Positions 31,317-58,572 of a stretch of 64,000 bases of DNA are shown here, piece by piece (the stretch's first letter is position 1; every line of letters begins with the position of its first letter). Under the pieces are notes generated by a model that had not been told where the DNA came from, ran no database searches, and was given only the letters and a program-made list of their open reading frames with translations. The stretch spans positions 2,356,001 to 2,420,000 of the forward strand of contig NZ_CP011834.1 in NCBI RefSeq assembly GCF_001412575.1. Reading direction: 5' to 3'. This stretch comes from Limnohabitans sp. 103DPR2. Lineage in GTDB: Bacteria > Pseudomonadota > Gammaproteobacteria > Burkholderiales > Burkholderiaceae_C. The translations under genes and the position numbers were made by a program.

Positions 31317-31386
31317 AGCCTAGAGCAACCAAACTTCAAAGGCGTTGCAAAGGTGTCGCAAACACAGTGCAAATGAAACGCCCATG

Positions 31387-31412
31387 AAAAACGCACCCGA
31401 AGGTGCGTTTTT
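31387..31412. terminator. Bidirectional rho-independent terminator at left island edge
   Basis: AAAAACGCACC-CGAA-GGTGCGTTTTT: an 11-base perfect inverted repeat with a CGAA loop, A-tract on one side and T-tract on the other. It lies 70 bases after the response-regulator stop. A sister hairpin with a paired base change lies at 60019-60040 next to the tRNA-Asp gene, suggesting this is the original tRNA-operon terminator. Confidence 0.9.
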
Positions 31413-31418
31413 GCTTTT

Positions 31419-31432
31419 TGGCGGAGTGGACG
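31419..31432 (+). repeat. Left att core: copy of the tRNA-Asp 3' end
   Basis: TGGCGGAGTGGACG is identical to 60055-60068, the last 14 bases (read on the minus strand) of the tRNA-Asp gene including its encoded CCA. The copies are in direct orientation and the match ends immediately after. It is too short to be a tRNA. It fits the duplicated 3' end left by tRNA-targeting integration. Confidence 0.85.
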
Positions 31433-31551: not shown

Positions 31552-31573
31552 TGGAGGGTAAATAGGTGGGTAG
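31552..31573 (+). repeat. Left copy of 22-bp imperfect direct repeat (candidate integrase arm site)
   Basis: This segment contains GGGTAAATAGGTGGGTAG and matches 59992-60013 at 19 of 22 positions in the same orientation. It covers the ribosome-binding site and GTG start of the integrase gene. In the excised circle the two copies would flank the tRNA-like core, the layout of arm-type sites in other tyrosine-recombinase att sites. Confidence 0.55.
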
Positions 31574-32834
31574 GATTGCCGCAAAACCATTGACTGCCAA
31601 GCAAGTCGAGAGCGAAAAGCATGACGGCTATTACGCCGATGGCGCATGTCCGGGCTTGAACCTTCAAGTGGCTAAAGGTCAAAGCCGAATCACACGAAGC
31701 TGGGTGTTTCGGTATACATCTCCCACCACCAGAAAACGTCGGGAACTTGGGCTGGGCTCAACCCGAGTGCGCTCACTAGCAGACGCCAGAAAGCTGGCAA
31801 ATGACTACCGTCTTCAGGTGCTCAATGGTCAAGACCCCAAAGATGAGCGAGACAAGCAACGAGCTGTGGCGGTGGCTGCGCGCGCTCACCGTATCACTTT
31901 TGATGAAGCCGTGAGCAAATGTCTAGAGACCAAGTCGCTGGAGTGGAAAAACGTCAAGCACGGGCAACAGTGGATCAATACCCTTACAACCTACGCAAGC
32001 CCGTTACTGGGTAAGCAGCCGGTTGAACTGATTACCACTGACTTGGTATACAAGGTTTTGGAGCCTATTTGGGTCACCAAGACGGAAACAGCAACGCGTG
32101 TGCGTCAGCGTATTGAAGTTGTGTTGGACTGGTGCAAAGCCCGAGGCTACTTCAATGGCGAGAATCCAGCGCGCCTGAAGGGTGCCCTAGGCGAGTTGCT
32201 CCCGAAGGCGCAGAAAATCAAGAAGGTAGAACACCATGCTGCTATCCATTACACACAAGTGCACGAGTTTGTTACGGCATTGCATGCCATGTCTGGCACT
32301 GCCCCGCTGGCACTGGAATTCATGTTGCTGACGGCAGCCAGAACTGGCGAAGCGGTCGGTGCCCGCTGGGATGAAATTGACATGGCAGCCAAGGTCTGGA
32401 CGGTGCCTGCTGAACGCATGAAGGCGGGCAGAGAACACCGGGTGCCGCTTTGTAGTCGTGCGGTAGAGATTCTGAAAACCATGCAGGCCGCGCAGCAGAA
32501 CGACTTCGTGTTCCCGGGACACTCGATCCAGAAGAACCCTCACCTTTCAACGGGTGCGTTCTTGGCGGTCTTCAACCGGCTTCCGAAGTTCAAGGGCTAC
32601 ACGCCACATGGCCTGCGAAGCTGCTTCCGTGACTGGGCCTCTGAGCGCACTCAGTTTCATAACGAAACGTTGGAATTAGCCCTTGCACACACCATCAAAA
32701 ACAAGGCCGAGGCGGCTTACAGGCGACAGGACCAACTTGAAAAGCGGGCGAAATTAATGCAGCAGTGGCAGCAGCACATTGAAACCGCCAACCAACCGCC
32801 ATCGATCATTTCCCTGCAAACTAAAAAAAGATGA
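31566..32834 (+). CDS. int: P4-type tyrosine integrase (DUF4102 family)
   Basis: A 422-residue recombinase. The N-terminal DUF4102-type arm-binding domain runs from ITRSWVFRY through LGLGSTRVRSLADARK. The catalytic domain has Arg259 (TAARTGEAVGARW), Lys286 or nearby (AERMKAGREHR), HGLR at 348-351 (TPHGLRSCFRDWASE), His375 (ALAHTIKN) and nucleophile Tyr385 (AEAAYRR). The GTG start has GGAGGG 7 bases upstream. These integrases usually insert elements at tRNA 3' ends, which matches the tRNA-Asp repeat here. The stop overlaps the next gene (ATGA). Confidence 0.94.
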   Translation: MGRIAAKPLTAKQVESEKHDGYYADGACPGLNLQVAKGQSRITRSWVFRYTSPTTRKRRELGLGSTRVRSLADARKLANDYRLQVLNGQDPKDERDKQRAVAVAARAHRITFDEAVSKCLETKSLEWKNVKHGQQWINTLTTYASPLLGKQPVELITTDLVYKVLEPIWVTKTETATRVRQRIEVVLDWCKARGYFNGENPARLKGALGELLPKAQKIKKVEHHAAIHYTQVHEFVTALHAMSGTAPLALEFMLLTAARTGEAVGARWDEIDMAAKVWTVPAERMKAGREHRVPLCSRAVEILKTMQAAQQNDFVFPGHSIQKNPHLSTGAFLAVFNRLPKFKGYTPHGLRSCFRDWASERTQFHNETLELALAHTIKNKAEAAYRRQDQLEKRAKLMQQWQQHIETANQPPSIISLQTKKR

Positions 32835-33418
32835 CGACTAACTTCAGATGGCCAAACCAACTCGGGCACGGCACTAGTAAGCAAGTGCCAATAGTTGCCG
32901 AAAACGATCGCTATGTTCTGGTGAATAAAAAAATAAACGCCAAAACCGGCAGACAAAAAACGGCCAGCTCATCCGATGGGCTCATTGACATTGCAGTAGC
33001 TGTCGAAATGCGTTTGATACCAAACGCAGGACTGCCCGGGATTCTGCATCACATGAATCGAAAACGTGTCCAGCGACTGCTTAAGCACAATACAGTAGTG
33101 AAGGTAAAGCCAAAGAATGCGACTCTTCAGGGCACGCACCGCACACAAGCATTGCTTAAGCTTGCTGACAAAGCGTTATCAACAGTAATCGGCCAAGAAT
33201 ATTGGTCAGCAAATCAACATCTTGGCCCTAGGGCCGCGCTCAGTACTACGCGCGTAATCGACTGGATAAAAACCAACCTCGAAAACCAAAGCAGCCCTCT
33301 CTGTAACGAACTCGTCGGCACTCCCTATGAAGACCTGATTGGTCTTCGCCGAACAAAAAGGTGGTGGCTTGATTTATTTGATCTTCGTAAAAATATGCAG
33401 AGTAATCTGACGCCGTAG
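32831..33418 (+). CDS. Unknown basic protein coupled to the integrase
   Basis: A 195-residue protein that I do not recognise. It is basic and soluble with no signal peptide or membrane segment. Visible blocks are GILHHMNRKRVQRLLKHNTV in the middle and LIGLRRTKRWWLDLFDLR near the C-terminus. Its ATG overlaps the integrase stop, so it is probably co-translated and may have a role in recombination or its control; that is inference from position only. Confidence 0.65.
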   Translation: MTTNFRWPNQLGHGTSKQVPIVAENDRYVLVNKKINAKTGRQKTASSSDGLIDIAVAVEMRLIPNAGLPGILHHMNRKRVQRLLKHNTVVKVKPKNATLQGTHRTQALLKLADKALSTVIGQEYWSANQHLGPRAALSTTRVIDWIKTNLENQSSPLCNELVGTPYEDLIGLRRTKRWWLDLFDLRKNMQSNLTP

Positions 33419-33476
33419 AAATGGACACCTAAAGTCCCACCCATGTTTAGCTAAGCCTTAAAGGAGGGCAAGAAAC

Positions 33477-33692
33477 ATGGATGCGAAACCTAATTCACTG
33501 CGCGTAGTTCGTATGCAAGAGGTAACTGAACGGGTATCTCTTGCCCCCAGCACCATTTACGGTCTGGTTCAAACCGGAAAATTTCCGGCTCCCTTCAAAA
33601 TCACCCCTGGAGGGCGAGCTGCTGGCTGGCTTCTTGGGGACATTGAGGGCTGGTTGATTTCTCGCACAGAAAAGGGAGGTCAGCATGAGTGA
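33477..33692 (+). CDS. AlpA-family excisionase/transcriptional regulator
   Basis: A 71-residue winged-helix protein: LRVVRMQEVTERVSLAPSTI, GKFPAPFKITPGGRAAGWL, DIEGWLISR. This is the AlpA pattern of phage and island regulators, which activate integrase genes or act as excision factors. A strong ribosome-binding site (AAAGGAGGG) precedes the ATG. It overlaps the next gene by eight bases. Confidence 0.9.
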   Translation: MDAKPNSLRVVRMQEVTERVSLAPSTIYGLVQTGKFPAPFKITPGGRAAGWLLGDIEGWLISRTEKGGQHE

Positions 33693-34254
33693 CCTGCAAC
33701 CCACCCCAAAATTTGACGTAAGCACTTTACGGTTGCCCCAGAATTTTGGGGAAACACTGGGCGTAAAGAAATTGATTACCCACATTCCTGTGAGTAAGCC
33801 CGGAGCAGAACGATTTTTTCGGGCACACCCTTCCGTGTCAATGCAGTTTGAAAGCTTGATCTACGAAGATAAAAGTTCACGGGACGTTTATGTTGTTCTA
33901 CCAGCATTGGGCGATGCACTCGGCCGACTGGCTAAGCCGGTCGTTCTATATCTTGCCGTGGACAGAAGGGGTAACCCATTTTTGATTCCCGTCCCGCTAC
34001 CCGGTCCTAACGGGTCAAGGTACCCGTGGCACGAATCTTTAGCCATGGCCGTTGAAAAGTCGAAAACGGATTGGGTACGGATTGCGGCCAACATGACTGC
34101 TGGCGTATATGACCTGTTTGTAGCTTCGGCAGATTTGCCCCCTCCCGAGTGGCCAGATATGGAAATGGATGCAATCGTGCAGATCGCTTTCGGTGGAAAA
34201 ATCATCGATACCATCCAACACCCCGTGATCCAAGCGTTGCAGGGTAAGGTATGA
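33685..34254 (+). CDS. Conserved island protein upstream of family A polymerase, function unknown
   Basis: A 189-residue soluble protein. Visible blocks: GAERFFRAHPSVSMQFESLI, DVYVVLPALGDAL, VPLPGPNGSRYPWHESLAMA, WVRIAANMTAGVYDLF, LPPPEWPDMEMD and HPVIQAL. I recall similar proteins with an FFR-x-HP block directly before polA-like genes in other proteobacterial islands, but this was not checked. Its stop overlaps the polymerase start (ATGA), suggesting a stoichiometric or functional partner of the polymerase. Confidence 0.75.
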   Translation: MSDLQPTPKFDVSTLRLPQNFGETLGVKKLITHIPVSKPGAERFFRAHPSVSMQFESLIYEDKSSRDVYVVLPALGDALGRLAKPVVLYLAVDRRGNPFLIPVPLPGPNGSRYPWHESLAMAVEKSKTDWVRIAANMTAGVYDLFVASADLPPPEWPDMEMDAIVQIAFGGKIIDTIQHPVIQALQGKV

Positions 34255-36011
34255 AAGCGATTGACCGATTCCCCAAAGGCATCTACCTTATCGACTTCGA
34301 GTTTCACCCCGTGGATCATCGCGAAGGCAATCCACCTAGACCAGTGTGTCTTGCTGTCAGGGAGTACATCACCGGGAGAGTTTGGCGGTATTGGGGCGAC
34401 GAATTACAAGTCATGAAAGAGGCCCCCTTCCCTTGTAGGGAAGGGGCGTTGACAGTTGCCTACTTTGCTAGTGCCGAGATGGATTGCTTCATAGCACTAA
34501 GTTGGGAATTGCCGCTCAACCTACTTGACCTGTATGTAGAGTTTCGCTCGCGAACCAATGGGCAACCGACCCCATATGGTGCCGGCTTGGTGGGGGCGCT
34601 GACGTTCTATGGTTTCCCCACAATGGAGTCTGCACAAAAAGATGAAATGCGCTTGCTTGTACTGAGTGGGGGGCCTTGGGAAGCTGAAGATAAAAAAGCG
34701 ATCCAAGACTACTGCCAAAGCGATGTCGATGCGATGCGCCCACTTTTAAGATTTCTTTATTCGCAAATCGATTGGCCCCGCGCGCTACACCGAGGTCGTT
34801 ACATGAAAGCTGTAGCAAGAATGCAGTCAGTCGGCGTACCTATTGATACAGAGGCCTTGCGGGCATGCATAGAAAACTGGGATGTCATAAAAGAGAAGCT
34901 GATTGCGAGCATTGATTCTGACTACGGTGTGTTTGATGGGCAAACTTTCAAAGCTTCACTTTGGGCCGCATATCTCGAACGTAACAATATCCAGTGGCCC
35001 CGATTGGATTCGGGCTCTCTCGCCCTAGATGATGAAACTTTTCGTCAGCAATCAAAGGCGTTTCCACAGGTTGCACCCATTCGAGAGTTACGGTCGGCAT
35101 TGTCAGAAATGCGACTTGCAAGCCTTACCGTTGGGTGCGATGGCCGAAATCGCTGCTTGCTCTCACCCTTCGCCTCGCGTACCGGCAGAAATCAACCATC
35201 AAACTCAAAGTTTATTTTTGGCCCATCTGTCTGGATGCGGTCACTCATCAAACCAAGACCTGGATTTGGGGTAGCGTACATTGACTACGCCCAGCAAGAG
35301 TTTGGGATAGCTGCGGCACTTTCCGACGACTTTGCAATGCAAGAAGCATATAGAAGTGGTGACCCTTATCTTGCATTTGCAAAGCAAGCTGGTGCAGTTC
35401 CGTTGCACGCAACAAAGAAAACACATGCTTCTGAGCGAGAGCAGTTCAAAGCTTGTGTTCTTGCCGTTCAATATGGCATGGGGGCGGAGGCACTGGCGCA
35501 GCGAATTGGTCAACCTGTCGCCCGCGCTAGACAATTACTTGAACTACACCGCCGCACCTATCCAAAGTTTTGGAGGTGGTCAGATGCAACAGTAGATGAG
35601 GCACAGCTCAACGGTCGCCTCTGGACTGTGTTTGGCTGGGAAATACGCCCATCACACCCGTTCAACCCAAGAAGCTTGCGCAACTTTCCCATGCAAGCAA
35701 ACGGCGCAGAGATGCTTCGGCTTGCTTGCATCTTCCTCACTGAAGCCGGCATCCGAGTATGCGCCCCGGTGCACGATGCATTAATGATCGAATCCACCTT
35801 AGATGTACTCGACGCAACCGTTGCCGAGGCTCAAAAACTTATGGCCGAAGCAAGCGCTGCCGTCCTCGGAGGCTTCGAATTAAACAGCGATGTGAAGATC
35901 ATTCGGTACCCAGCCCGATTCATGGATGAGCGAGGCGAATTAATGTGGAATAAGGTGATGGGCTTAATCGAACACGCCAATACGAAACCACTGGCTGAGT
36001 GCCAAGGGTAG
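34251..36011 (+). CDS. Family A DNA polymerase with proofreading exonuclease domain, island-encoded
   Basis: A 586-residue protein. The N-terminal part (1-170) is a DEDDy 3'-5' exonuclease: Asp15/Glu17 (YLIDFEF), Asp93 (LLDLYVEF), Tyr154/Asp158 (DYCQSDVDAM). The rest is a Pol I-type polymerase: motif A AYIDYAQQEFGIAAALSDD (Asp345, Glu350), motif B REQFKACVLAVQYGMG (Arg396, Lys400, Tyr408), and motif C PVHDALMIE (Asp509). Motif C has Ala where Pol I has Glu, and the motif B Phe is Leu. There is no 5' nuclease domain, and the protein is much shorter than the 928-residue E. coli Pol I. It probably copies or repairs element DNA. Confidence 0.93.
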   Translation: MKAIDRFPKGIYLIDFEFHPVDHREGNPPRPVCLAVREYITGRVWRYWGDELQVMKEAPFPCREGALTVAYFASAEMDCFIALSWELPLNLLDLYVEFRSRTNGQPTPYGAGLVGALTFYGFPTMESAQKDEMRLLVLSGGPWEAEDKKAIQDYCQSDVDAMRPLLRFLYSQIDWPRALHRGRYMKAVARMQSVGVPIDTEALRACIENWDVIKEKLIASIDSDYGVFDGQTFKASLWAAYLERNNIQWPRLDSGSLALDDETFRQQSKAFPQVAPIRELRSALSEMRLASLTVGCDGRNRCLLSPFASRTGRNQPSNSKFIFGPSVWMRSLIKPRPGFGVAYIDYAQQEFGIAAALSDDFAMQEAYRSGDPYLAFAKQAGAVPLHATKKTHASEREQFKACVLAVQYGMGAEALAQRIGQPVARARQLLELHRRTYPKFWRWSDATVDEAQLNGRLWTVFGWEIRPSHPFNPRSLRNFPMQANGAEMLRLACIFLTEAGIRVCAPVHDALMIESTLDVLDATVAEAQKLMAEASAAVLGGFELNSDVKIIRYPARFMDERGELMWNKVMGLIEHANTKPLAECQG

Positions 36012-36062
36012 CACTGGCTTACTCCCCTCCCCGTCCAATCTATTTATTTGTCTTAGATATAT

Positions 36063-36440
36063 ATGTACCCCAATGACCGATTAGTGCCGACTGTAAAGTT
36101 GAATTACTCAGCGGCTAACGGGTTCCAAGCTACTAAACGCGAGGGACTGTTTATCAAAGGGCCAATTCCGATGTCATGGCTTTCTTCAGCAGCAAAGCTG
36201 CCGGGTAAGGGGTTCCATGTGGCATTAGCGCTCTTCTGGCTTGCTGGCATGAAGCCACAGGGCAAAGTCAAGATGACGCGTCAGGCCCAGAACCTTTTCA
36301 ACGTCTCGGATGACGCCTACAGAGACGCACTGCCAAGATTGGAAGAGGCGGGGTTAATCAAGGTTTGGCGTGCTCCGGGACAGCGTGCGCAAGTCGAGAT
36401 TGCTCACCACATTACCCAAGCAACTGAACCCGGTCCTTGA
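36063..36440 (+). CDS. Small winged-helix-like hypothetical protein
   Basis: A 125-residue protein. Residues 50-115 look like a winged helix: GFHVALALFWLAGMKPQ, LFNVSDDAYRDALPRLEEAG, LIKVWRAPGQRAQVEI. I do not recognise a named family. It lies 51 bases after the polymerase gene in the same direction and may regulate the module. Confidence 0.6.
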   Translation: MYPNDRLVPTVKLNYSAANGFQATKREGLFIKGPIPMSWLSSAAKLPGKGFHVALALFWLAGMKPQGKVKMTRQAQNLFNVSDDAYRDALPRLEEAGLIKVWRAPGQRAQVEIAHHITQATEPGP

Positions 36441-36518
36441 GGTCCTTGGTTAATTAATTTTTCGTCGCCTCGTTTGACCCCCCTATTACTATGCAAATCG
36501 ATGTCTAGGAACTTGACA

Positions 36519-36908
36519 ATGACAACTGCTGGAGGGCGCATCCGCTGCACTCAATGTCAAGCGCTGGCCAAGAGTACCCAGCAACAGTGCCGACGACCTG
36601 CAACTAGTGGCAAGCGTGTTTGCAAACTACATGGCGGTAATTCCACGGGTCCCAAGACTCTGGAAGGCCGACAGCGTTGCGCTGAGGCACGACTGGTACA
36701 CGGGCAAGAAACTGCCAGAAATCGAAAAAATCGCAGCCTCGCCAGCGCCCGATTGGCGGTACTAGAGTGGGCCGGTCACTCGCTGCAGATCATGCATGGC
36801 CCCCGTACTCGAGGACCGAAACCCGTCCGTATGGATGAGGTTGAGTTAGAGCTTCAGCAAGCAGTGTGCCAAATCTTGCTTCGAACATACGCGAAAAATT
36901 ACCCATAG
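36519..36908 (+). CDS. HGGxSTGPKT-motif small Cys protein
   Basis: A protein of about 129 residues with a Cys-rich N-terminus (IRCTQCQALAKS, QQCRRPATSGKRVCKLHGG) and the motif HGGNSTGPKTLEGRQR followed by VHGQETARNR. This motif family is common in mobile elements; I recall no confirmed function, although some members are labelled terminase-like. I chose the ATG at 36519 because AGGA lies 8 bases upstream; ATG 36501 and an earlier start at 36474 are possible. Confidence 0.7.
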   Translation: MTTAGGRIRCTQCQALAKSTQQQCRRPATSGKRVCKLHGGNSTGPKTLEGRQRCAEARLVHGQETARNRKNRSLASARLAVLEWAGHSLQIMHGPRTRGPKPVRMDEVELELQQAVCQILLRTYAKNYP

Positions 36909-36985: not shown

Positions 36986-37432
36986 GTGACTGAACCCGTC
37001 GTGGCCCGCGTGGCCGCCCTCAAAACCGCTAGTACCGCCGAGCTCAAGCAGATGTGGCGGGACCTCTTCCACCAGGACGCGCCCCCGTTCAACCGCCGCT
37101 TCCTTGAAACACGCCTGGCGTACCGCATCCAGGAGTTGGCCTACGGAGGCCTGAAGCGCGAGACTGCAAAGCGCCTTGAACTGCTGGGCGAACAACTCGA
37201 TGGCGGCAAGCAGGAGGTCCGGCGCCGTCGGCTGGACAACCGCCCGATCGCCGGGACTCGACTGATCCGCGAATGGCAAGGCACACCTTGCGAGGTCGTG
37301 GTGGGTGTCGACCACTTCGACTACCAGGGCCGGCGGTACAAATCTCTGTCGAGCATCGCGCGCGCCATTACTGGCACCAACCGCAACGGGTGGGCCTTCT
37401 TCGGGCTAAGCTCGGCAAGGAGCACCGCATGA
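36986..37432 (+). CDS. DUF2924 protein
   Basis: A 148-residue protein with the DUF2924 pattern: ELKQMWRDLFHQDAPPFNRR, FLETRLAYRIQELAYGGL, GTRLIREWQGTPCEVVV, YQGRRYKSLSSIARAITGT and NRNGWAFFGL. It is known as the constant partner of a serine recombinase in many alpha- and betaproteobacterial elements. The ATG of the recombinase overlaps its stop. DNA here is visibly richer in GC than the preceding module. Confidence 0.88.
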   Translation: MTEPVVARVAALKTASTAELKQMWRDLFHQDAPPFNRRFLETRLAYRIQELAYGGLKRETAKRLELLGEQLDGGKQEVRRRRLDNRPIAGTRLIREWQGTPCEVVVGVDHFDYQGRRYKSLSSIARAITGTNRNGWAFFGLSSARSTA

Positions 37433-38775
37433 CGGCAGAGCGACGCCTGATCTGCGCCATCTACACGCGCAAGTCCACAGAAGAGGGACTCGACCAGAAC
37501 TTCAACTCGCTGGACGCGCAGCGTGATGCCTGTGAGAACTACATCGCCAGCCAAAAATCAGAGGGCTGGCTCATGGCGCGGGAGCGCTACGACGACGGGG
37601 GCTACTCCGGCGGCAACATGGAGCGCCCGGGCCTCAAAAAACTGCTGGACGACGTCCGCAGCGGCATGGTCGACATCATCGTCGTCTACAAAATCGACCG
37701 GCTGTCGCGATCACTCGCCGACTTTGCCAAGCTGGTCGAGATCTTTGATGAGCACAAGGTCACCTTCGTATCGGTGACGCAAGCCTTCAACACCACCACT
37801 TCCATGGGCCGGCTGACGTTGAACATCCTGCTGTCCTTTGCCCAGTTCGAGCGCGAGTTGGCTGGCGAGCGGGTGCGCGACAAGATTGCTGCCTCACGCC
37901 AGCGCGGTATCTGGATGGGTGGAATGCCACCCCTGGGCTATGACGTTTCAGACCGCAAGCTGATTCCCAACCCGCAAGAAGCGAAGATCGTCCGGGAAAT
38001 GTTCACGAGGTTTGCCGCGATGTCATCGATGGCCACGCTCGTGAGAGATATGCGCGCCAAGGGCGTCACATCCAAGTCGTGGACTACCGCCAAGGGGATC
38101 GAACGCCAAGGCAAGCTGATCACCAAGGGCTACGTCTACAAGGTGTTCAAGAACCCTGTCTACATCGGTATGGCCGCCTACAAGGGGCAGCAGTACCCGG
38201 GCGAACACAGCGCCATCATCGATCAAGAGGTCTGGGATACGGTGCAAGAACTGCTCAAAGCGGGCGACAAGCATGTCAAGGGCGGGGCCGGGATGCGCGA
38301 GACCAAGGCGCCGTCCATGTTGCGCGGGTTGATCTTTTCCCCGGAAGGCCGCGCCTTCACGCCGGGCTGGACCAGCAAGGGGCCCAAGCAGTACCGCTAC
38401 TACATAAACACCGACGCCACCAAGCTTGGTAAAGAAGCCTGCGAAGTCCGACGTGTGCCGGCTGGCGAAATCGAAGGGGTTGTGGTCGAGCAGTTGCGCG
38501 GCGTTTTGAGAGCGCCAGAAATCCTGGCCGAAGCGGTCCGGGAAGTCACCTTGTCTCGGCCAGACATCAGTGAGGCCGATGCCATCCAGACACTCCAGTC
38601 CATTGACCAGGTTTGGGATAACTTGTTTCCGGCTGAGCAGGCATGCATCGCTAAAGCGCTGATCGAGCGGATCACGGTTCGCACGGACGGTATCGACATC
38701 AAGTGGAAGTCCACCGGCATGACCAAACTGCTTCGCGACACGGTCATGCAACAGGCCTACAAGGAGGCTGCATGA
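37429..38775 (+). CDS. Serine recombinase (resolvase/invertase family, large type)
   Basis: A 448-residue recombinase. The N-terminal catalytic domain has the nucleophile Ser16 in AIYTRKSTEEG, SLDAQRDACENYI, YDDGGYSGGNMERPGL and YKIDRLSRSLADF. A Recombinase domain follows (GIWMGGMPPLGYDV, VYKVFKNPVYIGMAAYKG) and then a C-terminal DNA-binding part. The start at 37429 overlaps the DUF2924 stop; the longer open frame upstream is a shadow of that gene. Its stop overlaps the next gene (ATGA). It may mobilise its own cassette within the island. Confidence 0.92.
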   Translation: MTAERRLICAIYTRKSTEEGLDQNFNSLDAQRDACENYIASQKSEGWLMARERYDDGGYSGGNMERPGLKKLLDDVRSGMVDIIVVYKIDRLSRSLADFAKLVEIFDEHKVTFVSVTQAFNTTTSMGRLTLNILLSFAQFERELAGERVRDKIAASRQRGIWMGGMPPLGYDVSDRKLIPNPQEAKIVREMFTRFAAMSSMATLVRDMRAKGVTSKSWTTAKGIERQGKLITKGYVYKVFKNPVYIGMAAYKGQQYPGEHSAIIDQEVWDTVQELLKAGDKHVKGGAGMRETKAPSMLRGLIFSPEGRAFTPGWTSKGPKQYRYYINTDATKLGKEACEVRRVPAGEIEGVVVEQLRGVLRAPEILAEAVREVTLSRPDISEADAIQTLQSIDQVWDNLFPAEQACIAKALIERITVRTDGIDIKWKSTGMTKLLRDTVMQQAYKEAA

Positions 38776-39197
38776 CTCAAGCTGCGCAAATGCCGGAGAC
38801 GACCCACATCCCAATGACCTTTCGACCGCGGGGCGGCAAAACGGTCATCGTCTTGCCCGATGGATCGCGTGGTTTGGTGCGCCGCGAGGCAACGATCGAC
38901 AACACCATGATCAAGGTGATTGCACGCGGGTTCAGGTGGCAGCGCCTGCTTTATGACGGGACCTACGCCACCATCGAAGACCTGGCTGCCGCGGAGAAGA
39001 TCAACCCATCCTACGTCAGCCGTATCCTGCGGCTGGCCTACTTGTCGCCCAAAGTGGTTCAGGCAATCCTTGACGGATCACACCCAGCTTGGTTGACCAT
39101 GAGGGATCTGCTGGAGCCGTTCCCCATGGACTGGCAACTACAGGAAAAAAAGTTTCTTGCTCGGTTCGAAGAAAGCAATCTAACCTCCGAATACTAA
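38772..39197 (+). CDS. KorB/ParB-like helix-turn-helix protein
   Basis: A 141-residue protein. The block YATIEDLAAAEKINPSYVSR with ILRLAYLSPKVVQAILDG matches the helix-turn-helix of ParB/KorB-type proteins. The N-terminal half (PRGGKTVIVLPDGSRGLVRR) is basic. It is coupled to the serine recombinase (ATGA). DUF2924, recombinase and a protein like this form a recurrent three-gene cassette, so a role in recombinase targeting or control is likely but unproven. Confidence 0.72.
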   Translation: MTQAAQMPETTHIPMTFRPRGGKTVIVLPDGSRGLVRREATIDNTMIKVIARGFRWQRLLYDGTYATIEDLAAAEKINPSYVSRILRLAYLSPKVVQAILDGSHPAWLTMRDLLEPFPMDWQLQEKKFLARFEESNLTSEY

Positions 39198-39228: not shown

Positions 39229-40605
39229 TCAATGAGGAAACGTCAAGGTAAATCGAGTGATGCCGCGGGCAGAGCTGGCGTAGACGCTGCCGCCATGTGC
39301 TTCCACTATCGCCTTGGTGATGGCAAGTCCCAACCCCACCCCATCTGAGCCGAGATGCGAGCGCGCTTGGTCCACGCGATAGAAGCGGTCAAATAATCGT
39401 GGCATCAAGAGCGGATCAATGTCTTCGCCGCTGTTCTCAACTGAGATGTCGGTGCAGTTCGTCCGACTGGCAACAGTGATTTTTACGCAACTGCCTGAAG
39501 GCGCGTAACGTAGCGCATTCGACATGAGATTGCTCAATGCACGCCGGAACATAAGGCGGTCGCCCTGCACCGGGCCGTTCCCCTCCAGGGTTAGAGCAAT
39601 ACTCTTGTCGTCTGCCACAGCCTCGTAGAAGTCGATCAACGCTTGGACTTCATCTGCGGCCATGAAGTCTTCTTTGTGCGGTAGGTCCACCCTGCGTTCG
39701 GTTTTAGCCAACAGCAACATGTCAGACACCATGCGAGCCAGTCGCTGCAACTCCTCGGCGTTTGAAGCAAGAACATCCTTGTAAACCTCGTTCTCACGCT
39801 TGGAAGTCAAAGTAACCTGAGTCTGAGTGAGCAGGTTACTGATTGGCGTCCGAAGTTCATGAGCCAAGTCGGAAGAGAACTCAGACAATCGCTGAAAGTC
39901 ATCCTGGAGCCGCTCTAGCATCTGGTTGAGCGTCTTCGCCAAATCAGCCATCTCGATTGGCACAGACTGAACCGGCATGCAAGGCTGCAAACGCTGGGCG
40001 GTTACGGCAGCAGCATGCGCCTTAATGGCTCTTAGTGGAGCGAGGCCGTAATAGACCGCTGCCCATCCAAGCAAACCGCTGACGACGATTGCTGCTAGCG
40101 CATACAAGCCTAGTGCGTTCAAAAGCTCATTTAGAAAATGCTGATGGTGGGCCGTATCCATGGCAAGGCTGACCGTGAGTTGAATTCCTGGCGCGTACTG
40201 CGCCTCTGCCTGAAATTGCTGATGTCGGAATTCCTGCTGTCCGCGACGCCACCACATCAAAGCCATTAAAGGATTCACATCCGGAGGCAACTGCAGACGA
40301 TCAGCCGCAGGATAACCCTCGGTCTGAAAGAGGATTCGCCCATCACCACTGCTGACGCGCACGAAAAGTCCGTGGTGATGATTGAGCGATTCGTCGAGCC
40401 GGCGATCCAAATCTTTGGAGGATCTGCTACTTGCGATGATTTCGCCAATGAGATGTTGCTTGTCTTGCAGTGCACCGCGATCAAGGTCAACAAAGTGTTG
40501 ATCCGCCGCAGCCATGAATAGCCCGCCCAAACCCAGCACCACGCTGGAGGCCACCAGGGTAAAAAAAAGCGTAAGCCGGTGGGTCAACGATAGACGAGGC
40601 AACAC
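39229..40605 (-). CDS. copS: Heavy-metal (copper) sensor histidine kinase
   Basis: A 458-residue membrane kinase. Transmembrane segment near residues 10-30, periplasmic domain to about residue 160, second segment (LYALAAIVVSGLLGWAAVYY), HAMP domain. The H-box is SSDLAHELRTPISNLLTQTQ, then the ATPase domain with NLMSNALRYAPSG, DRFYRV and GVGLGLAITKAIV. The periplasmic region has a His-rich stretch (LNHHHGLF) and DTAHHQHF, consistent with CusS/CopS-type copper sensing. It is adjacent to copR in the same orientation with no gap, divergent from the copper operon. Confidence 0.9.
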   Translation of the reverse strand: MLPRLSLTHRLTLFFTLVASSVVLGLGGLFMAAADQHFVDLDRGALQDKQHLIGEIIASSRSSKDLDRRLDESLNHHHGLFVRVSSGDGRILFQTEGYPAADRLQLPPDVNPLMALMWWRRGQQEFRHQQFQAEAQYAPGIQLTVSLAMDTAHHQHFLNELLNALGLYALAAIVVSGLLGWAAVYYGLAPLRAIKAHAAAVTAQRLQPCMPVQSVPIEMADLAKTLNQMLERLQDDFQRLSEFSSDLAHELRTPISNLLTQTQVTLTSKRENEVYKDVLASNAEELQRLARMVSDMLLLAKTERRVDLPHKEDFMAADEVQALIDFYEAVADDKSIALTLEGNGPVQGDRLMFRRALSNLMSNALRYAPSGSCVKITVASRTNCTDISVENSGEDIDPLLMPRLFDRFYRVDQARSHLGSDGVGLGLAITKAIVEAHGGSVYASSARGITRFTLTFPH

Positions 40606-41292
40606 TCAGGGCTCCTGCGGCACTTCAAGCACGTATCCCATGCCCCGTACTGTCTGGATCAATTTGACCGCTTGCCCATCGTCGATTTTGATTCGCAAGC
40701 GTCGCATTGCCACTTCGATGACATTCGTGTCGGAATCGAAGTTCATATCCCACACTTGAGACGCAATCAAGGAGCGTGGTAATACCTCACCTTGTCGGCG
40801 CATCAGCAATTCGAGGAGACCGAATTCCTTTGCGGTCAGATCTATCCGGCGCCCACCTCGCGTAACGCGACGTCGCAGCAAATCCAGTTCTAAATCCGCC
40901 GTGCGCAGGGTGTTGCTATCCACTCCACCTCCGCGCCCACGGCGAAGAATTGTTCTCACCCGTGCCAAAAGCTCCGCAAAAGAAAATGGCTTGACCAGAT
41001 AGTCGTCAGCCCCCAGTTCAAGACCCTTGACGCGATCCTCGACCTGGTCGCGTGCGGTCAAAAATAGCACCGGCATGTCCAACCCGCGCCGACGCAATGA
41101 GGCCAACACTTGCCAGCCATCGAGTTCGGGAAGCATCACGTCAAGAACTACTAAGTTGTATTCACTATGCAGGGCCAGATGCAGCCCATCGGTGCCGTTG
41201 ACAGCCAAATCCGCGACGAATCCAGCCTCATTCAGTCCCTGGCGCAAATATTCGCCGGTCTTCGGCTCGTCTTCAACGATGAGTATTTTCAA
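40606..41292 (-). CDS. copR: Copper response regulator, OmpR family
   Basis: A 228-residue response regulator. Receiver domain [20 protein letters not shown] with phospho-acceptor Asp51 ([14 protein letters not shown]) and Lys in [14 protein letters not shown]. The C-terminal winged helix has [38 protein letters not shown] and [10 protein letters not shown]. It closely follows the CusR/CopR/PcoR pattern. It should bind the palindrome at 41352-41371 in the divergent promoter region and activate the copper operon. Confidence 0.93.
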
Positions 41293-41351
41293 GAGTTAGC
41301 TCCATGTCCCGCGTAAGGGAAGTCTGCCAGAAAACCAGGGAAGTGACGCGC

Positions 41352-41371
41352 AGATGACAAATTTGTCATCT
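41352..41371. promoter_or_regulatory. CopR/CusR-type operator (cop box)
   Basis: AGATGACAAATTTGTCATCT is a perfect 20-bp palindrome in the 149-base region between copR and the copper operon. It contains TGACAAA-TTTGTCA, which matches the TGACA-N-TGTCA-type core known for E. coli CusR/PcoR boxes. It lies 60 bases from the copR start and 71 bases from the first operon gene. Confidence 0.88.
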
Positions 41372-41441
41372 TCAGATCATCTTCTCGACAGATGAGATAG
41401 CCAACACTACGCAGTCTTAACCACCCTCGGAAAAACCCTTG

Positions 41442-41756
41442 ATGCTCACCAAATTCAACATCTCCGGAGCCCTGGTGTCATGGTCGTGCTTGATCGTTTC
41501 CGGCGTAGCAGTTGCTGCCCCTGAGGAAAAAACCCAGCTCCAGCCACTGCCCAGCGAACTTCGCTACACGTCCAGCCTGACTAACTACAAAGGCTACACC
41601 GACCAGGCTGTGCAGTCTTGGCGTGGTGCAAATGACCGGGTGGGTCAAGTCGGAGGCTGGCGAGCTTATGCCAAAGAAATAGCCGAGCAACCCGCCTCGA
41701 ACGCTCAGCCTGCCGCCGACCCGCACGCCGGCCACCACAAAGGGACCCAGCGATGA
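41442..41756 (+). CDS. Small exported protein of the copper operon
   Basis: A 104-residue protein with a signal peptide (SGALVSWSCLIVSGVAVAA). The mature part has LPSELRYTSSLTNYKGYTDQ and VGQVGGWRAYAKEIAEQ. The C-terminus ends DPHAGHHKGTQR, a short His cluster that could bind copper. Proteins like this are seen at the head of TolC/multicopper oxidase operons, without a known function. It overlaps the next gene by four bases (ATGA). Confidence 0.78.
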   Translation: MLTKFNISGALVSWSCLIVSGVAVAAPEEKTQLQPLPSELRYTSSLTNYKGYTDQAVQSWRGANDRVGQVGGWRAYAKEIAEQPASNAQPAADPHAGHHKGTQR

Positions 41757-43186
41757 AGCGGCTGACCTCTCCTCGTGGCTTGAAACTCACAGCGGCGCTC
41801 GTTGGCATCGGAGTTCTGTCCGGTTGTGCCAGCGTCAGCCTCGAGCAGAACTTGCATCGAGTTAACCAGGAAACTGCCGCCTTTTCTGGCGGACAGGTTC
41901 AGCTTGCGCGGGATGCATCTGAACGCAAAGAACGGGACCTGGCTGCCTCACAACTGCTTCGGTCTCCCTTGGGGCAGAAGGAAGCCGTACAGCTGGCCTT
42001 ATTGAATAGTGCATCACTACAAGCATTGCTGGCTCAGGGATGGGCTGACGCCGCTGCTGGCGCACAAAGCGGGCGCATTTCTAACCCTGCATTCAGCTTT
42101 GAGCGAATGGTCAAAGGCGATGAGCTCGAGTTGGGGCGCGCTTTATCGTTTGGCCTTCTTGATGTGCTGACCCTGCCAGTGCGTCAAAACCTGGCACGAC
42201 AGCGAATTGAACAGGCGCAATTGCAACTGTCTGGTCAGGTCATTGATCACGTTACGCGCGTACGCCAGGCATGGGTTCGCGCAGTCGCAGCGCAGCAGAC
42301 TCTCAATTACGCGCAGCAAATTGTTGAGGCAGCAGAAGCAAGTTCCGAGTTGGCTCGGCGCATGCAGGCGGCTGGAAATTTCAATCGACTAAACCGCGCT
42401 CGCGAACAGGCTTTTTACGCAGACGCTGCCACCCGTTTAGCGACTGCCCAGCATCAGGTGACCTCAACCAGAGAAGAACTAGTCCGACTCCTCGGCCTGG
42501 ATGAAGCTCAAGCAAACATACTGCAACTCCCGCAGCGCTTGCCTGATTTGCCTAGAGAAGCTCTCGATGCCACTGCGATCGGAAGTATGGCCACAAGAAC
42601 TCGCTTGGACATTCAGCTGGCGCTCAACGGCATCAACTCGGCTGCGAAAGCACAAGGGATCACAAAGATCACAAGCTTCACTGATATTGAACTGATTGCA
42701 CGACGCAACACCACCTTTGACAACGCGTCCGGTAGCAGAAGCACTGCCCGAGGTTTTGAAGTCGATATCCGATTGCCGATTTTCGATTGGGGGGACATGC
42801 AACGAAGTGCGTGGAATGCACGCACGATTGCTGCAGCCCATAACCTTGAGGCCGCTGTACGCTCAGCAGGGTCCAACCTCAGGGAGAGCTATTCGGCATA
42901 TAGGACTGCCTATGACATCGCTCGACACCACCGCGATGAGGTGGTGCCAATCCGGAAGGTCATATCAGAAGAAAACCAGCTCCGATACAACGGAATGATC
43001 ATCGGCGTATTTGAGTTGTTGGCTGATGCAAAAGATCAAGTCAGCACAGTCATAGCAGCCATCAATGCTGAGCAGCAATTTTGGCTGGCAGACGCTGCTT
43101 TGAAGGCCTCGGTCATCGGCAGGCCTACAACTATGGCTATAGCACCTGCGGCTGCAGCAGCACCTACTGCCGCGGCCCCCCATTGA
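41753..43186 (+). CDS. TolC-family outer membrane lipoprotein
   Basis: A 477-residue protein. The lipobox is VGIGVLSGCASVS, so the mature protein is probably acylated at Cys25. Long helical repeats (RQNLARQRIEQAQLQLSGQV and RTAYDIARHHRDEVVPIRKV) give the outer membrane factor pattern. The C-terminus is Ala/Pro-rich. It is coupled to the preceding small gene. No inner-membrane pump or adaptor is in this operon, so it may work with a pump elsewhere or have another role in copper handling. Confidence 0.85.
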   Translation: MKRLTSPRGLKLTAALVGIGVLSGCASVSLEQNLHRVNQETAAFSGGQVQLARDASERKERDLAASQLLRSPLGQKEAVQLALLNSASLQALLAQGWADAAAGAQSGRISNPAFSFERMVKGDELELGRALSFGLLDVLTLPVRQNLARQRIEQAQLQLSGQVIDHVTRVRQAWVRAVAAQQTLNYAQQIVEAAEASSELARRMQAAGNFNRLNRAREQAFYADAATRLATAQHQVTSTREELVRLLGLDEAQANILQLPQRLPDLPREALDATAIGSMATRTRLDIQLALNGINSAAKAQGITKITSFTDIELIARRNTTFDNASGSRSTARGFEVDIRLPIFDWGDMQRSAWNARTIAAAHNLEAAVRSAGSNLRESYSAYRTAYDIARHHRDEVVPIRKVISEENQLRYNGMIIGVFELLADAKDQVSTVIAAINAEQQFWLADAALKASVIGRPTTMAIAPAAAAAPTAAAPH

Positions 43187-43203
43187 TTGAAGGACGGTCT
43201 CAA

Positions 43204-44616
43204 ATGACATCCAGACGAGAGTTTTTTAAGTTTGCAGGTATCGCTGGCGGTGCCGTTGCGGCGAGTTCGGTCAGCCGCGCCGCTATGGCGGCATTGCCAG
43301 AGCCGATGATTCAAACTTCGGCTCAGACCATGGCGCCTTTGATCCCAAATACCGGACGCCCCTACAACCCCGTCGTGACTTTGAACGGATGGACGCTGCC
43401 ATGGCGAATGAACCAGGGAGTGAAAGAGTTCCATCTAGTTGCTGAGCCAGTGGTTCGCGAAATGGCGCCGGGCTTTAAAGCTCATCTCTGGGGTTACAAC
43501 GGACAAAGCCCCGGTCCGACGATCGAGGTCGTTGAAGGAGATCGAGTTCGTATCTTTGTGACCAACAGGTTGCCTGAACACACCAGCATTCATTGGCATG
43601 GCCAGCGATTGCCCAACGGAATGGACGGGGTGGCCGGGTTGAATCAGCCCGCAATCTCACCGGGAAAGACCTTTGTCTATGAGTTTGTTGCAAGACGCCC
43701 GGGAACCTTCATGTACCACCCGCATGCCGATGAAATGACACAGATGGCCATGGGCATGATGGGTTTTTGGGTCACGCATCCCAAAGCCAAGAACCCATTG
43801 ATTGATGAAGTCAACCGCGATTTTTGTTTCTTGCTCAGTGCCTACGACATCGATCCTGGCAGCTACACGCCAAAGATCATGACGATGCTCGATTTCAACT
43901 TGTGGAGTTGGAACAGTCGCATCTTCCCCGGCATTGACTCGCTCAATGTGCGACTCAATGACAAGGTGCGTATCCGGATCGGTAATTTAACGATGACCAA
44001 TCATCCGATTCACTTGCACGGACATGAATTCCTTGTTACCGGTACCGATGGGGGGCCAACGCCCAAAAGCACTCGGTGGTACGAAGTAACAACAGATGTG
44101 GCTGTCGGCCAAATGCGCCAGATTGAGTTCCTGGCAGATGAGGAGGGAGATTGGGCCTTCCATTGCCACAAGAGCCATCACACCATGAACGCTATGGGTC
44201 ACAACGTGCCCACATTGATAGGTGTCGACCACTCCGGGGTCGCCAAAAAAATCAATAAGTTAATTCCAGACTACATGGTGATGGGTGAGCGCGGTATGGC
44301 TGATATGGCTGAAATGGAGATGCCTCTGCCTGAGAACACCGCAGCGATGATGACTGGCGACGGCCCCTTTGGATCAGTCGAAATGGGCGGCATGTTCAGT
44401 GTCCTGAAGGTACGCAAAGACCAAAAGCCCGGTGACTATAAGGATCCAGGCTGGTTCAAGCATCCAGACGGCACTGTCGCGCATGAGTACACAGGCCCAC
44501 TCGCCGAACCAGCCAGATTTAAGGCTGAGGGGGGGCAATCGATGCCTCGTACTCAAAAGCCTGAAGCCGCAACTGAGGTTCGAGTGCGAAAGCCTGCATC
44601 GCACGGATCTCATTGA
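43204..44616 (+). CDS. Tat-exported multicopper oxidase
   Basis: A 470-residue multicopper oxidase. Twin-arginine signal TSRREFFKFAGIAGGAV. Copper-binding motifs: HWHG at 130-133, YHPH at 171-174, HPIHLHGHEF at 267-276 and HCHKSHH at 320-326 with Met331. The last 130 residues are Met-rich in part (GMADMAEMEMPLP) and end in SHGSH. It probably oxidizes Cu(I) in the periplasm, as CueO and CopA do. It is shorter than CueO-type three-domain enzymes with an unusual tail. The start at 43204 follows the lipoprotein stop by 17 bases. Confidence 0.93.
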   Translation: MTSRREFFKFAGIAGGAVAASSVSRAAMAALPEPMIQTSAQTMAPLIPNTGRPYNPVVTLNGWTLPWRMNQGVKEFHLVAEPVVREMAPGFKAHLWGYNGQSPGPTIEVVEGDRVRIFVTNRLPEHTSIHWHGQRLPNGMDGVAGLNQPAISPGKTFVYEFVARRPGTFMYHPHADEMTQMAMGMMGFWVTHPKAKNPLIDEVNRDFCFLLSAYDIDPGSYTPKIMTMLDFNLWSWNSRIFPGIDSLNVRLNDKVRIRIGNLTMTNHPIHLHGHEFLVTGTDGGPTPKSTRWYEVTTDVAVGQMRQIEFLADEEGDWAFHCHKSHHTMNAMGHNVPTLIGVDHSGVAKKINKLIPDYMVMGERGMADMAEMEMPLPENTAAMMTGDGPFGSVEMGGMFSVLKVRKDQKPGDYKDPGWFKHPDGTVAHEYTGPLAEPARFKAEGGQSMPRTQKPEAATEVRVRKPASHGSH

Positions 44617-44639
44617 AATTCATTGAACGGAGAACTTTA

Positions 44640-45140
44640 ATGATCAAAGCAAAACTTTTTCCGGGTGTTGTACTGGCTCTTGCATCTGTCGTTGCCGTTC
44701 CCACCTGGGCTCACGGGAATCAAAATCACGGCAAACCTGCGGGGGAAATCAAGTTAGAGCAGAAAGACTGGGGAATCGGCGCCCCCTCGTCAAAAGCGAC
44801 CCGCACCATTGAAGTGCGAATGACTGACAACATGCGCTTTGCGCCCAATCGAATTGATGTCAAGTTGGGCGAAACGGTTCGGTTCGTGGTGGTCAACGCC
44901 GGAAAGGTGATGCATGAGTTCGTTCTCGGCACCAAGAGGGAGTTGGATGAACACGCAGCCTTGATGAAGAAATTTCCCAATATGGAGCATGACGAGCCAT
45001 ATATGGCTCACGTCGAACCTGGAAAAAAGGGGGAGATTGTCTGGACGTTCAACAGAGTGGGCGAATTTGATTTCGCCTGCCTATTGCCTGGTCATTACGA
45101 GGCAGGCATGCGGGGGACGATAAATGTCGCAAAGAAGTAA
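44640..45140 (+). CDS. Cupredoxin-domain copper protein
   Basis: A 166-residue exported protein. Signal peptide MIKAKLFPGVVLALASVVAV ending near WAHG. The cupredoxin fold carries His in GKVMHEFVLG and the Cys-His pair in FDFACLLPGHYEAGM. A His-containing mature N-terminus (HGNQNHGKPAG) precedes it. Similar proteins sit next to multicopper oxidases as periplasmic copper carriers. Start at 44640 with GGAG upstream; an ATG at 44613 is less likely. Confidence 0.88.
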   Translation: MIKAKLFPGVVLALASVVAVPTWAHGNQNHGKPAGEIKLEQKDWGIGAPSSKATRTIEVRMTDNMRFAPNRIDVKLGETVRFVVVNAGKVMHEFVLGTKRELDEHAALMKKFPNMEHDEPYMAHVEPGKKGEIVWTFNRVGEFDFACLLPGHYEAGMRGTINVAKK

Positions 45141-45186
45141 GTTGGGTACGAACGTTCATCCGACGAAAAGTGACTGGCTCAAGGCT

Positions 45187-45669
45187 ATGAACTTTTCAAG
45201 ACGAAAGCTAGTTATCGGTCTGGCAGCAGCAGGCTTTACGCCGATTATTTTTGCGCAAAAGAATCCGTCACTTGCGATTCAGATTTGGAAGGATCCAAAT
45301 TGCGGATGCTGTAAGGACTGGGTCGATCACCTTGAAAAATCTGGGTTCACCGCAACGATTCTCGAACAGGGAAACAACGGCATACGTAGCAAGCTAGGCA
45401 TGCCGCAGAAGTTTGGGTCTTGTCACACTGCTTTGATTCAAGGTTATGTGATTGAAGGGCATGTTCCAGCATCAGAAATTCTGTATTTGCTCAAAGTCAG
45501 ACCGAGCGCCCTAGGGCTAGCTGTCCCAGGAATGCCAGTCGGATCACCAGGAATGGATGGATCGGTTTACGGCAATCGGCGGGATGCTTTTGATGTTCTA
45601 TTGGTGCAGAAAGACGGAACATCAAAGGTCTTTAAATCTTATCCAGGAGAAAAACGTGCAAGTTCTTAA
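45187..45669 (+). CDS. DUF411 metal-binding protein, Tat-exported
   Basis: A 160-residue protein. It starts with a likely Tat signal (NFSRRKLVIGLAAAG). The DUF411 motif is IWKDPNCGCCKDWVDHLEKS, followed by SCHTALIQGYVIEGHVPA and LAVPGMPVGSPGMD. Members (CopG-like) bind copper through the Cys cluster. The start at 45187 gives a normal signal peptide; an in-frame ATG at 45124 overlaps the cupredoxin gene and has a G-rich upstream element. Confidence 0.88.
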   Translation: MNFSRRKLVIGLAAAGFTPIIFAQKNPSLAIQIWKDPNCGCCKDWVDHLEKSGFTATILEQGNNGIRSKLGMPQKFGSCHTALIQGYVIEGHVPASEILYLLKVRPSALGLAVPGMPVGSPGMDGSVYGNRRDAFDVLLVQKDGTSKVFKSYPGEKRASS

Positions 45670-46015
45670 ACAGGCTTTTGCAGTGTGCACCGCCTCTGCC
45701 CTCTTGAGCATTCCTTTCGCGGGCAATGCACAGTCCAGCATGGACCACAGCAAGATGGATCACGTTAAGCCCGAGACCTCACAAACAATTCCTTCAATGT
45801 CGGATGGCGAAGTCAGAAGGGTCGATTTAGAGACAGGCAAGATCACCATCCGGCACGGCTACATCAAGCATTTGGACATGCCGAGCATGACAATGGTTTT
45901 CACTGCCAAGGAAAAAGGCTTGCTCACCGATGTGAAGCCAGGGGATAAGATTAAGTTCATGGTGGTTGATGAGGCCGGGAAGATGGTCGTAACGGCCATT
46001 ACGCCCGCACAATGA
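45656..46015 (+). CDS. CusF-like periplasmic copper-binding protein
   Basis: A 119-residue exported protein. Signal peptide QAFAVCTASALLSIPFAGNA, a Met/His-rich stretch SSMDHSKMDH, then the CusF fold: GEVRRVDLETGKITIRHGYI, IKHLDMPSMTMVFTAKE, and KIKFMVVDE. His, Met and Met of the CusF site are visible in the HLDMPSMTM segment. I use the GTG start at 45656 with AGGAGA just upstream; it overlaps the DUF411 tail by 14 bases. It is the last intact gene of the copper operon. Confidence 0.88.
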   Translation: MQVLKQAFAVCTASALLSIPFAGNAQSSMDHSKMDHVKPETSQTIPSMSDGEVRRVDLETGKITIRHGYIKHLDMPSMTMVFTAKEKGLLTDVKPGDKIKFMVVDEAGKMVVTAITPAQ

Positions 46016-46070
46016 ACTGCTTCACGAGCGCATTCCTCTGCATCACCATTAACTGAGGGGTCTTAGCACA

Positions 46071-46169
46071 ATGGAAAAACCTTATCACCGATTTTCGGAG
46101 TTGTTTGCACAGCTTGGCTTAGCCTCAGATGCTTCATCCATCAGGGCTTTCATTGAACGCCACTCGCAG
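46071..46169 (+). pseudogene. Truncated DUF2789 gene
   Basis: The first 33 codons (MEKPYHRFSELFAQLGLASD, then ASSIRAFIERHSQ) match the N-terminus of DUF2789 proteins as I remember them (about 75 residues). The match ends where an ISL3-type transposase fragment begins on the other strand. A ribosome-binding site (GAGGGG) is upstream. It was probably the last gene of the copper operon before disruption. Confidence 0.68.
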
Positions 46170-46279
46170 GCGATGGGATCGGGCACGTCCACCTGGAAGT
46201 GCATTTCGTCGTCGGTTGATTTGCAGCCCAGTACTTGGTATTGCGGCAGGTGAAGGATGTTGTCGGGAAGTTCGGTCAT
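46163..46279 (-). pseudogene. ISL3-family transposase remnant (N-terminus only)
   Basis: About 39 codons on the minus strand: MTELPDNILHLPQYQVLGCK followed by STDDEMHFQVDVPDPIACE. This is the start of ISL3-type transposases, just before their zinc-ribbon Cys. The rest is missing: the 3' side is joined to the DUF2789 fragment and the upstream side ends 20 bases before the IS21 element. Confidence 0.68.
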
Positions 46280-46415
46280 GGTGTTGTATAGGCGTAGGTT
46301 GTTGAATGGCATCCAAAACTGAGCCATTTTGAAGAGAATTTGCATCCAAATTTGAGCCACCCCAATCGCCTATCCTGCTTAATTTTTGAGCAAGGATGGG
46401 CAAGGAGTGATCAAC

Positions 46416-47918: not shown

Positions 47919-48718
47919 GCGATGTCATTGATGGACTCAAGTCTTTGAGTTTGCATGGGATGGCCAGTGCTTGGCCAGAGATTCTGGGCACTGCCAGAAT
48001 GAAGACGCTAGATCACGAGGTGGTGCTGCACCAGCTCATTAAGTCTGAGACGGCGCAGCGGGAAGATCGCTCGATGGCGTATCAAATGAAAGCGGCCAGG
48101 TTCCCCGCGCACCGGGACCTGGTGGGCTTTGAGTTTGAGCAAGCGCATGTGGACGAAGCACTTGTGAAGCAGCTGCATGATTTACAGTTTATGGACACGG
48201 CGCAAAACGTGGTGTTTGTGGGCGGCCCTGGCACTGGCAAAACGCACCTTGCAACAAGCCTTGGCATTCAAGCGGTGCGGGCCAAAGGTAAACGGGTTCG
48301 CTTCTTCTCAACAGTGGAGCTTGTTAATGCGCTGGAGCTAGAGAAGTCTCAAAGCAAACACGGCCAACTGGCTCACCGCTTGATGTACGTGGATCTTGTT
48401 ATTCTGGATGAGATGGGGTACTTGCCGTTTACGCAGTCTGGAGGCGCACTGCTGTTTCATTTGCTGTCCAAGCTTTATGAGAGAACCAGCGTGGTCATCA
48501 CAACCAACCTGAACTTCTCTGAATGGGCCAATGTGTTTGGAGATGCCAAGATGACCACGGCACTTCTAGACCGACTGACACATCGCTGCCACATTGTTGA
48601 AACTGGCAATGAGAGTTGGCGCTTCAAGCAGTCCCAAGCGAGCACTCAACAGTCAAAGAAATCAAAAGGGAAAGGAGCAAAAAATGCAGAACAGTTAAAC
48701 TTATCCACAACCGACTAG
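47915..48718 (+). CDS. istB: IS21-family helper ATPase IstB
   Basis: A 267-residue AAA+ ATPase related to DnaC. Walker [10 protein letters not shown] at 103-111, Walker [13 protein letters not shown], then [15 protein letters not shown] and [14 protein letters not shown]. It directs the IstA transposase to its target. The Lys/Ser-rich C-terminus ([10 protein letters not shown]) is usual for the group. Confidence 0.94.
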
Positions 48719-48790
48719 GCCAAATTATTTAAAAACTGGTGGCTCAATATTGGTTGCAAATAGTGGCTCACTTTGCGTTGCAATTCAACA

Positions 48791-49159: not shown

Positions 49160-49235
49160 CTTCAAAAAAATGACCTCCACGAATAAACATCAATTCGCAT
49201 TGAACAGATGCCAATGCAAATGGTTTGTTAACGAA

Positions 49236-49619: not shown

Positions 49620-49641
49620 TTCCAATCCTTTCAGTATCAAA

Positions 49642-52761: not shown

Positions 52762-52762
52762 A

Positions 52763-54471: not shown

Positions 54472-54479
54472 AGCACACC

Positions 54480-58549: not shown

Positions 58550-58572
58550 AACTGTTACTCCTAGTTGGGTAG

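Follow-up and report, generated by a model that had tools for sequence, protein, structure and literature searches.

The stretch analysed here comprises 64,000 nucleotides of Limnohabitans sp. 103DPR2 (contig NZ_CP011834.1, positions 2,356,001 to 2,420,000 of the forward strand; hereafter the window) and carries a genomic island of about 28.6 kb (31419-60068), inserted at the 3' end of a tRNA-Asp gene. An integration and replication module (31566-36908), which encodes a family A DNA polymerase with a proofreading domain, forms the integrase end of this island. The seven open reading frames (ORFs) of the module lie on a single strand, at the positions and in the direction given in the initial annotation, which had been made from the sequence alone (Table 1). 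The int gene overlaps the gene for the 195-amino-acid (aa) protein by 4 bp, the AlpA gene overlaps the 189-aa gene by 8 bp and the 189-aa gene overlaps the polymerase gene by 4 bp, with a gap of 58 bp between the 195-aa and AlpA genes. Pfam gave no match for the 195-, 189- and 125-aa proteins. The observation goes beyond chance, since the 586-aa ORF is unbroken, belongs to a large family and is accompanied by a conserved partner gene. The HGGxSTG-motif gene was rejected as a core member because the motif HGGxST(G)P/A/R was found in only one of 28 other loci scanned (L066).

Table 1. Features of the tRNA-Asp island and its borders (positions in the window).
Feature	Position	Strand	Evidence or remark
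Terminator-like sequence, 23 bp	31386..31408		Beside attL
attL	31419..31432		14-bp exact repeat of tRNA-Asp 3' end
Tyrosine recombinase (integrase), 422 aa	31566..32834	+	Pfam Arm-DNA-bind_3, Phage_int_M, Phage_integrase
195-aa protein, no assigned family	32831..33418	+	No match in Pfam, NCBIfam, PHROGs, PADLOC
AlpA-type regulator/excisionase, 71 aa	33477..33692	+	Pfam Phage_AlpA; PHROGs excisionase and transcriptional regulator
189-aa protein, probable OB-fold single-stranded DNA-binding partner of the polymerase	33685..34254	+
Family A DNA polymerase with 3'-5' exonuclease, 586 aa	34251..36011	+	Ala at motif C
Winged-helix protein, 125 aa	36063..36440	+	Profile against PDB: GntR/MarR-type winged helices, best E 8.8e-5
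HGGxSTG-motif protein, 144 aa, outside conserved core	36474..36908	+	NCBIfam HGG_STG
Block of about 60% GC (60-62%): DUF2924, large serine recombinase, 164-aa gene	36986..39197	+	164-aa gene: phrog_14161 recombinase
Cargo region: copper/heavy-metal genes and IS21-type element	39229..59108		Remaining genes named by eye
Multicopper-oxidase-like gene	43081..44616		PDB sequence match
IS21-type ATP-binding protein	47915..48718		PDB sequence match
CusA/CzcA-like pump	49642..52761		PDB sequence match
Zn/Cd-type P-type ATPase	56315..58549		PDB sequence match
Terminator-like sequence, second copy	60018..60040		91% identity
attR	60055..60068		Same 14 bp as attL; tRNA 3' end
tRNA-Asp	60055..60131	-	Contains attR

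The limits of the island follow from the 14-bp repeat together with uninterrupted sites in two genomes of the same genus. A search with the left flank across 60 genomes of the genus, that of the window among them, gave some match in 42, and in G746 and G708 (uninterrupted-site loci L043 and L050) a single match reached the last base of the flank (query 1-713 at 81% identity and query 13-713 at 69% identity, respectively); the last 14 bp of each match were exactly the tRNA-Asp 3' end. Among 500 shuffles of the 249 bp preceding int, six gave some 14-bp match within 36-61 kb, but the repeat is more telling than this rate because the real match is a tRNA end. The locus thus shows an integrase, direct repeats and an empty site in relatives, as an integrated genomic island does. 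An end of the element at the HGGxSTG-motif gene (36908), as originally delimited, was rejected because the repeats and empty sites place the far end at tRNA-Asp, at 60 kb, and the module is one end of a larger island. Across same-genus genomes (L042-L053), the distance from the left-flank gene to the end of the tRNA ranges from none to about 8.6 kb, suggesting an insertion hot spot.

In the 586-aa polymerase Pfam found DNA_pol_A and no 5' nuclease domain. The predicted structure (predicted local distance difference test score 86.1) matched Pol I structures in Foldseek (best E 3.9e-20, template modelling score about 0.6-0.7), and motifs A, B and C with the Pol I fold place the protein in family A, with the glutamate of motif C replaced by alanine. 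The relevant positions are D345 and E350 (motif A), R396, K400, L404 and Y408 (O helix), R474, N478, Q482, H508 and D509, and A510 (motif C), which by Klenow numbering replaces Glu883. All of them, A510 included, are identical in all 121 aligned rows (those of the window and of the 120 homologues listed). The exonuclease carboxylates are D15, E17 and D158, with Y154; D15 and E17 (exo I) are identical in 120 rows, the remaining row being gapped, and D15 or Y154 differs in a few of the more distant rows. The alanine and the missing 5' nuclease had been noted correctly, and the retention of key exonuclease and polymerase residues held as well, except that the third exonuclease carboxylate is probably E76 rather than D78, since in a divergent alignment of 14 rows E76 is invariant and D78 is often Gly.

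Among the more distant loci, 20 have HDA and three have HDG at motif C (L034 is broken before the motif and L072 is unclear), as against HDE in four cellular, two mycobacteriophage and one Listeria phage rows; in two rows of polymerases linked to reverse transcriptase (RT), no such pattern was found. Klenow Glu883 matters less than Asp705 and Asp882, and the alanine variant could therefore stay active; a family that has fixed the loss of this glutamate poses a mechanistic question of its own. The polymerases of L001 (6138-8321) and L016/L040 share the location of an additional stretch of more than 100 aa, which falls between profile positions 229 and 232. In a tree of 38 rows (L083 and L034 left out) the 30 element polymerases stood on one side of a branch with support 99/99, and four cellular PolA, two mycobacteriophage and two RT-linked rows on the other; four element rows lay on long branches and little of the inner order was resolved. 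The element polymerases are a clade separate from the rows tested, on which ground an origin from RT-linked or cellular PolA was rejected, and the clustering with phage polymerases that had been named as a counter-indication was not seen with the two mycobacteriophage rows. Plasmid-borne family A polymerases directly downstream of RT genes (L088 3227-4831, L089 3227-4777) lie outside the element clade.

The 189-aa gene is the most constant neighbour of the polymerase. Thirty loci were examined, four of which were cut at the polymerase start; in 24 of the 26 informative loci the 189-aa gene is the next gene upstream, and it was not found in L072 and L074. The first 189-aa alignment contained many of the tested loci, and a control model (33 rows, with the window as the sole locus row) recovered the same 24 loci, 23 besides the window, at E 1.3e-4 or better. 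The gene is also present in G1094, which was fetched later, and its predicted co-occurrence with the polymerase near integrases is thereby borne out, also in delimited tRNA-integrated elements. With a model from which four doubtful rows had been removed, a winged-helix gene was detected downstream in 19 of the 30 loci, of which ten are training rows or their duplicates and nine are independent. For five of the 17 best 189-aa matches, the longest contig is equal in size to that of a listed polymerase match, an indirect sign of linkage. A large serine recombinase also occurs beside the pair in L035 (4234-6018), where it abuts tRNA-Asn (6004-6076), and serine-recombinase-like genes lie near it in L034, L038, L012, L066 and L073; some relatives may use such enzymes to integrate.

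The predicted model of the 189-aa protein weakly resembles single-stranded DNA-binding proteins with an oligonucleotide/oligosaccharide-binding fold (OB-fold) and may be gp32-like; the protein is a probable single-stranded DNA-binding partner of the polymerase. Against the PDB, Foldseek gave no match to this model at E <= 0.001, which does not show that the fold is new; among predicted viral structures there were four matches at that threshold, none with proven function. A Listeria phage with a structurally similar protein (P70) was dropped as a named relative, as its record does not show which gene lies beside the polymerase. At the sequence level the family matched only four DnaJ rows in the PDB (E 0.32-0.86, taken as chance) and three PHROGs families by one member of 46 each (best E 0.0072), which led nowhere. 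Neither the 50,697 phage records nor the 72,556 plasmid records gave a match to the 189-aa protein.

The polymerase family is large (the protein search scored only the 7998 candidates with the most shared words, all of which passed E 0.001; the 120 homologues listed are 64-98% identical) and rare per genome. At E <= 1e-60 it was found in one of 397 other genomes in the phylum sample, one of 398 in the family sample and five of 293 in the phylum of the Planctomycetaceae metagenome-assembled genome L001. Its matches in plasmid (55) and phage (1111) records were all below 60% identity, and none covered more than 80% of the query. The module is common in environmental protein sets, yet was not found in phage or plasmid records, and the 189-aa/polymerase gene pair can readily serve to recognise elements of this kind.

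Six elements of 9.6-28.6 kb could be delimited, at tRNA-Asp (the window), Ser, Arg, Sec, Pro and Cys. That of G1094, from the same family, measures 15.5 kb between 17-bp repeats at tRNA-Ser and carries a type ISP restriction enzyme; that of G359, from another family of the phylum, measures 9.9 kb between 42-bp repeats at tRNA-Arg, carries a glycosyltransferase and spans the contig ends on the assumption of a circular contig. In G595 (10.2 kb, 73-bp repeat at tRNA-Sec) the polymerase has one in-frame TGA. The element of L062 (12.0 kb, 47-bp repeat at tRNA-Pro) encodes the 189-aa protein, polymerase, winged-helix protein, terminase, portal, protease-capsid and integrase, and that of L063 (9.6 kb, 46-bp repeat at tRNA-Cys) an integrase, the 189-aa protein, polymerase, winged-helix protein, terminase subunits and an HK97-type capsid. 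Because the remaining ORFs of both are short or overlap named genes on the opposite strand, there is no room for a tail module, as judged from ORF space (tail models were not run on every ORF), and the two elements look like phage satellites. No packaging gene was found in the other four. Repeats were sought and not found in L001, L033, L035, L036, the G575 stretch, L010, L012-L015, L038, L040, L041, L061, L066, L067, L069, L073 and L080, many of these contigs being cut.

At least one of terminase, portal, protease and capsid occurs in 17 of 22 IMG/VR loci (by local searches of the stretch read), and the same queries gave none in nine loci from bacterial genomes, the window and G1094 included. 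Identities rest on Pfam/PHROGs for nine loci and on similarity to those nine for the rest; L007 and L009 nearly duplicate each other, in L072 terminase and portal sit elsewhere on the contig, and a virus collection favours contigs with packaging genes, so that 17 of 22 does not give the true share among elements. Elements that bring a family A polymerase of their own do form a real class, as first proposed, but this class is not free of phage structural genes, and kinship with phages or phage satellites is likely.

The module is best read as the integration-plus-replication end of the island, whose core (the probable single-stranded DNA-binding protein, the proofreading family A polymerase and the winged-helix protein) is shared by a widespread and so far undescribed family of satellite-like elements that integrate at tRNA genes and copy their excised circle (probability about 0.60). 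No title or abstract describing an element with a family A polymerase was found, most subscription papers lying outside the search, which is thus no proof of absence from print. Int, together with AlpA, would release the island in circular form, the winged-helix protein may mark or open an origin (a relative's protein at this position weakly matches Phage_rep_O, below the cut-off), the 189-aa protein would coat single strands and the polymerase would copy the circle, with priming and unwinding supplied by the host or a helper phage. Copies would be re-integrated, or packaged by a helper; transfer of the island, with its metal-resistance cargo and no packaging gene found, would depend on the latter. 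Replication, or repair, after excision is an inference. The GpA terminase and Phage_capsid families had no match across the whole own genome, and for this reason the estimate was lowered slightly, from 0.62 to 0.60.

The same genes could be the early region of a degraded prophage, its late genes lost to the serine-recombinase and metal-resistance insertions and its polymerase, once phage-replicative, now idle. In favour of this, the early genes recur in relatives on virus contigs, with terminase, portal and capsid coming after them; the polymerase is also encoded on virus contigs of 35-60 kb, and the high-GC block directly follows the module. We nevertheless regard this as rather unlikely, as the complete att-bounded relatives are small (9.6-15.5 kb), and two of them combine packaging genes with too little space for a tail. 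In the window, moreover, the six module ORFs are intact and the polymerase retains its catalytic residues, and relatives of the 189-aa protein are absent from the phage records searched.

That the polymerase is accessory cargo aiding the host, for instance in DNA repair, would suit a Pol I-type enzyme with proofreading and no helicase or primase beside it; the enzyme, however, stays linked to the 189-aa gene and near integrases even where the cargo differs (restriction enzyme, glycosyltransferase, metal genes), which makes such a role improbable. An anti-phage function like that of the RT-linked PolA of systems of the defence-associated RT (DRT) type is suggested by the PADLOC model RTasPolA, which matches the polymerase at E 1.2e-25, a match that may reflect merely the shared polymerase domain. 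As no RT occurs among the neighbouring proteins scanned (Pfam, NCBIfam, PHROGs), the polymerase does not qualify as an RT-linked PolA, and RT-linked polymerases lie outside the element clade; defence of this kind is thus highly improbable. The satellite-like reading may be extended, tentatively and with some doubt, to a self-replicating integrative class parallel to pipolins, with a family A polymerase that has no glutamate in motif C, its own single-stranded DNA-binding protein and no element-coded helicase or primase, which would cross phyla between cargo-island and capsid-coding satellite forms.

Among known systems, pipolins are nearest in logic, and for the capsid-coding relatives capsid-forming satellites; the window element matches neither definition in full. 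Pipolins, as characterised in PMC7385651, are tRNA-integrated, with recombinases, their own DNA polymerase, commonly att sites and otherwise variable content, and the window island shares the tRNA gene, att repeats and recombinase. Their polymerase, in contrast, is piPolB, a primer-independent family B enzyme, whereas that of the window belongs to family A by Pfam and fold, has a 3'-5' exonuclease and comes with recurrent 189-aa and winged-helix partners. Like capsid-forming phage-inducible chromosomal islands (cfPICI), L062 and L063 are small and tRNA-integrated, with integrase, terminase and capsid. Replication modules of cfPICI are of the primase/helicase type, whereas the element family has a polymerase and a probable single-stranded DNA-binding protein, apparently for replication; with the queries used, the window did not show the combination of terminase, portal and capsid without tail genes. 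Capsid-forming satellites are named in a passage of PMC11389934.

Genomic islands at transfer-messenger RNA (tmRNA) genes, transduced by jumbo phage (PMC12595487, main text), likewise have a tyrosine integrase, alpA, direct repeats, cargo and no genes for autonomous transfer, but their recurrent genes are RadC, YqaJ and an inovirus Gp2-like gene, and the word 'polymerase' is absent from that main text. Tycheposons, as described in PMC10872708, resemble the island in the features compared, namely tRNA borders, tyrosine recombinase and variable cargo. A single replication module is common to the metal-resistance island, an island with a restriction enzyme and probable phage satellites. With its gene pair, the question of how islands that lack transfer genes are copied becomes open to testing.

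Between module and cargo, the serine-recombinase block has the look of an independent integrative unit nested within the island. The queries used found no packaging gene (terminase, portal, protease, capsid) in the window, and the genes identified in the cargo region are those for copper and heavy metals and the IS21-type element (Table 1).
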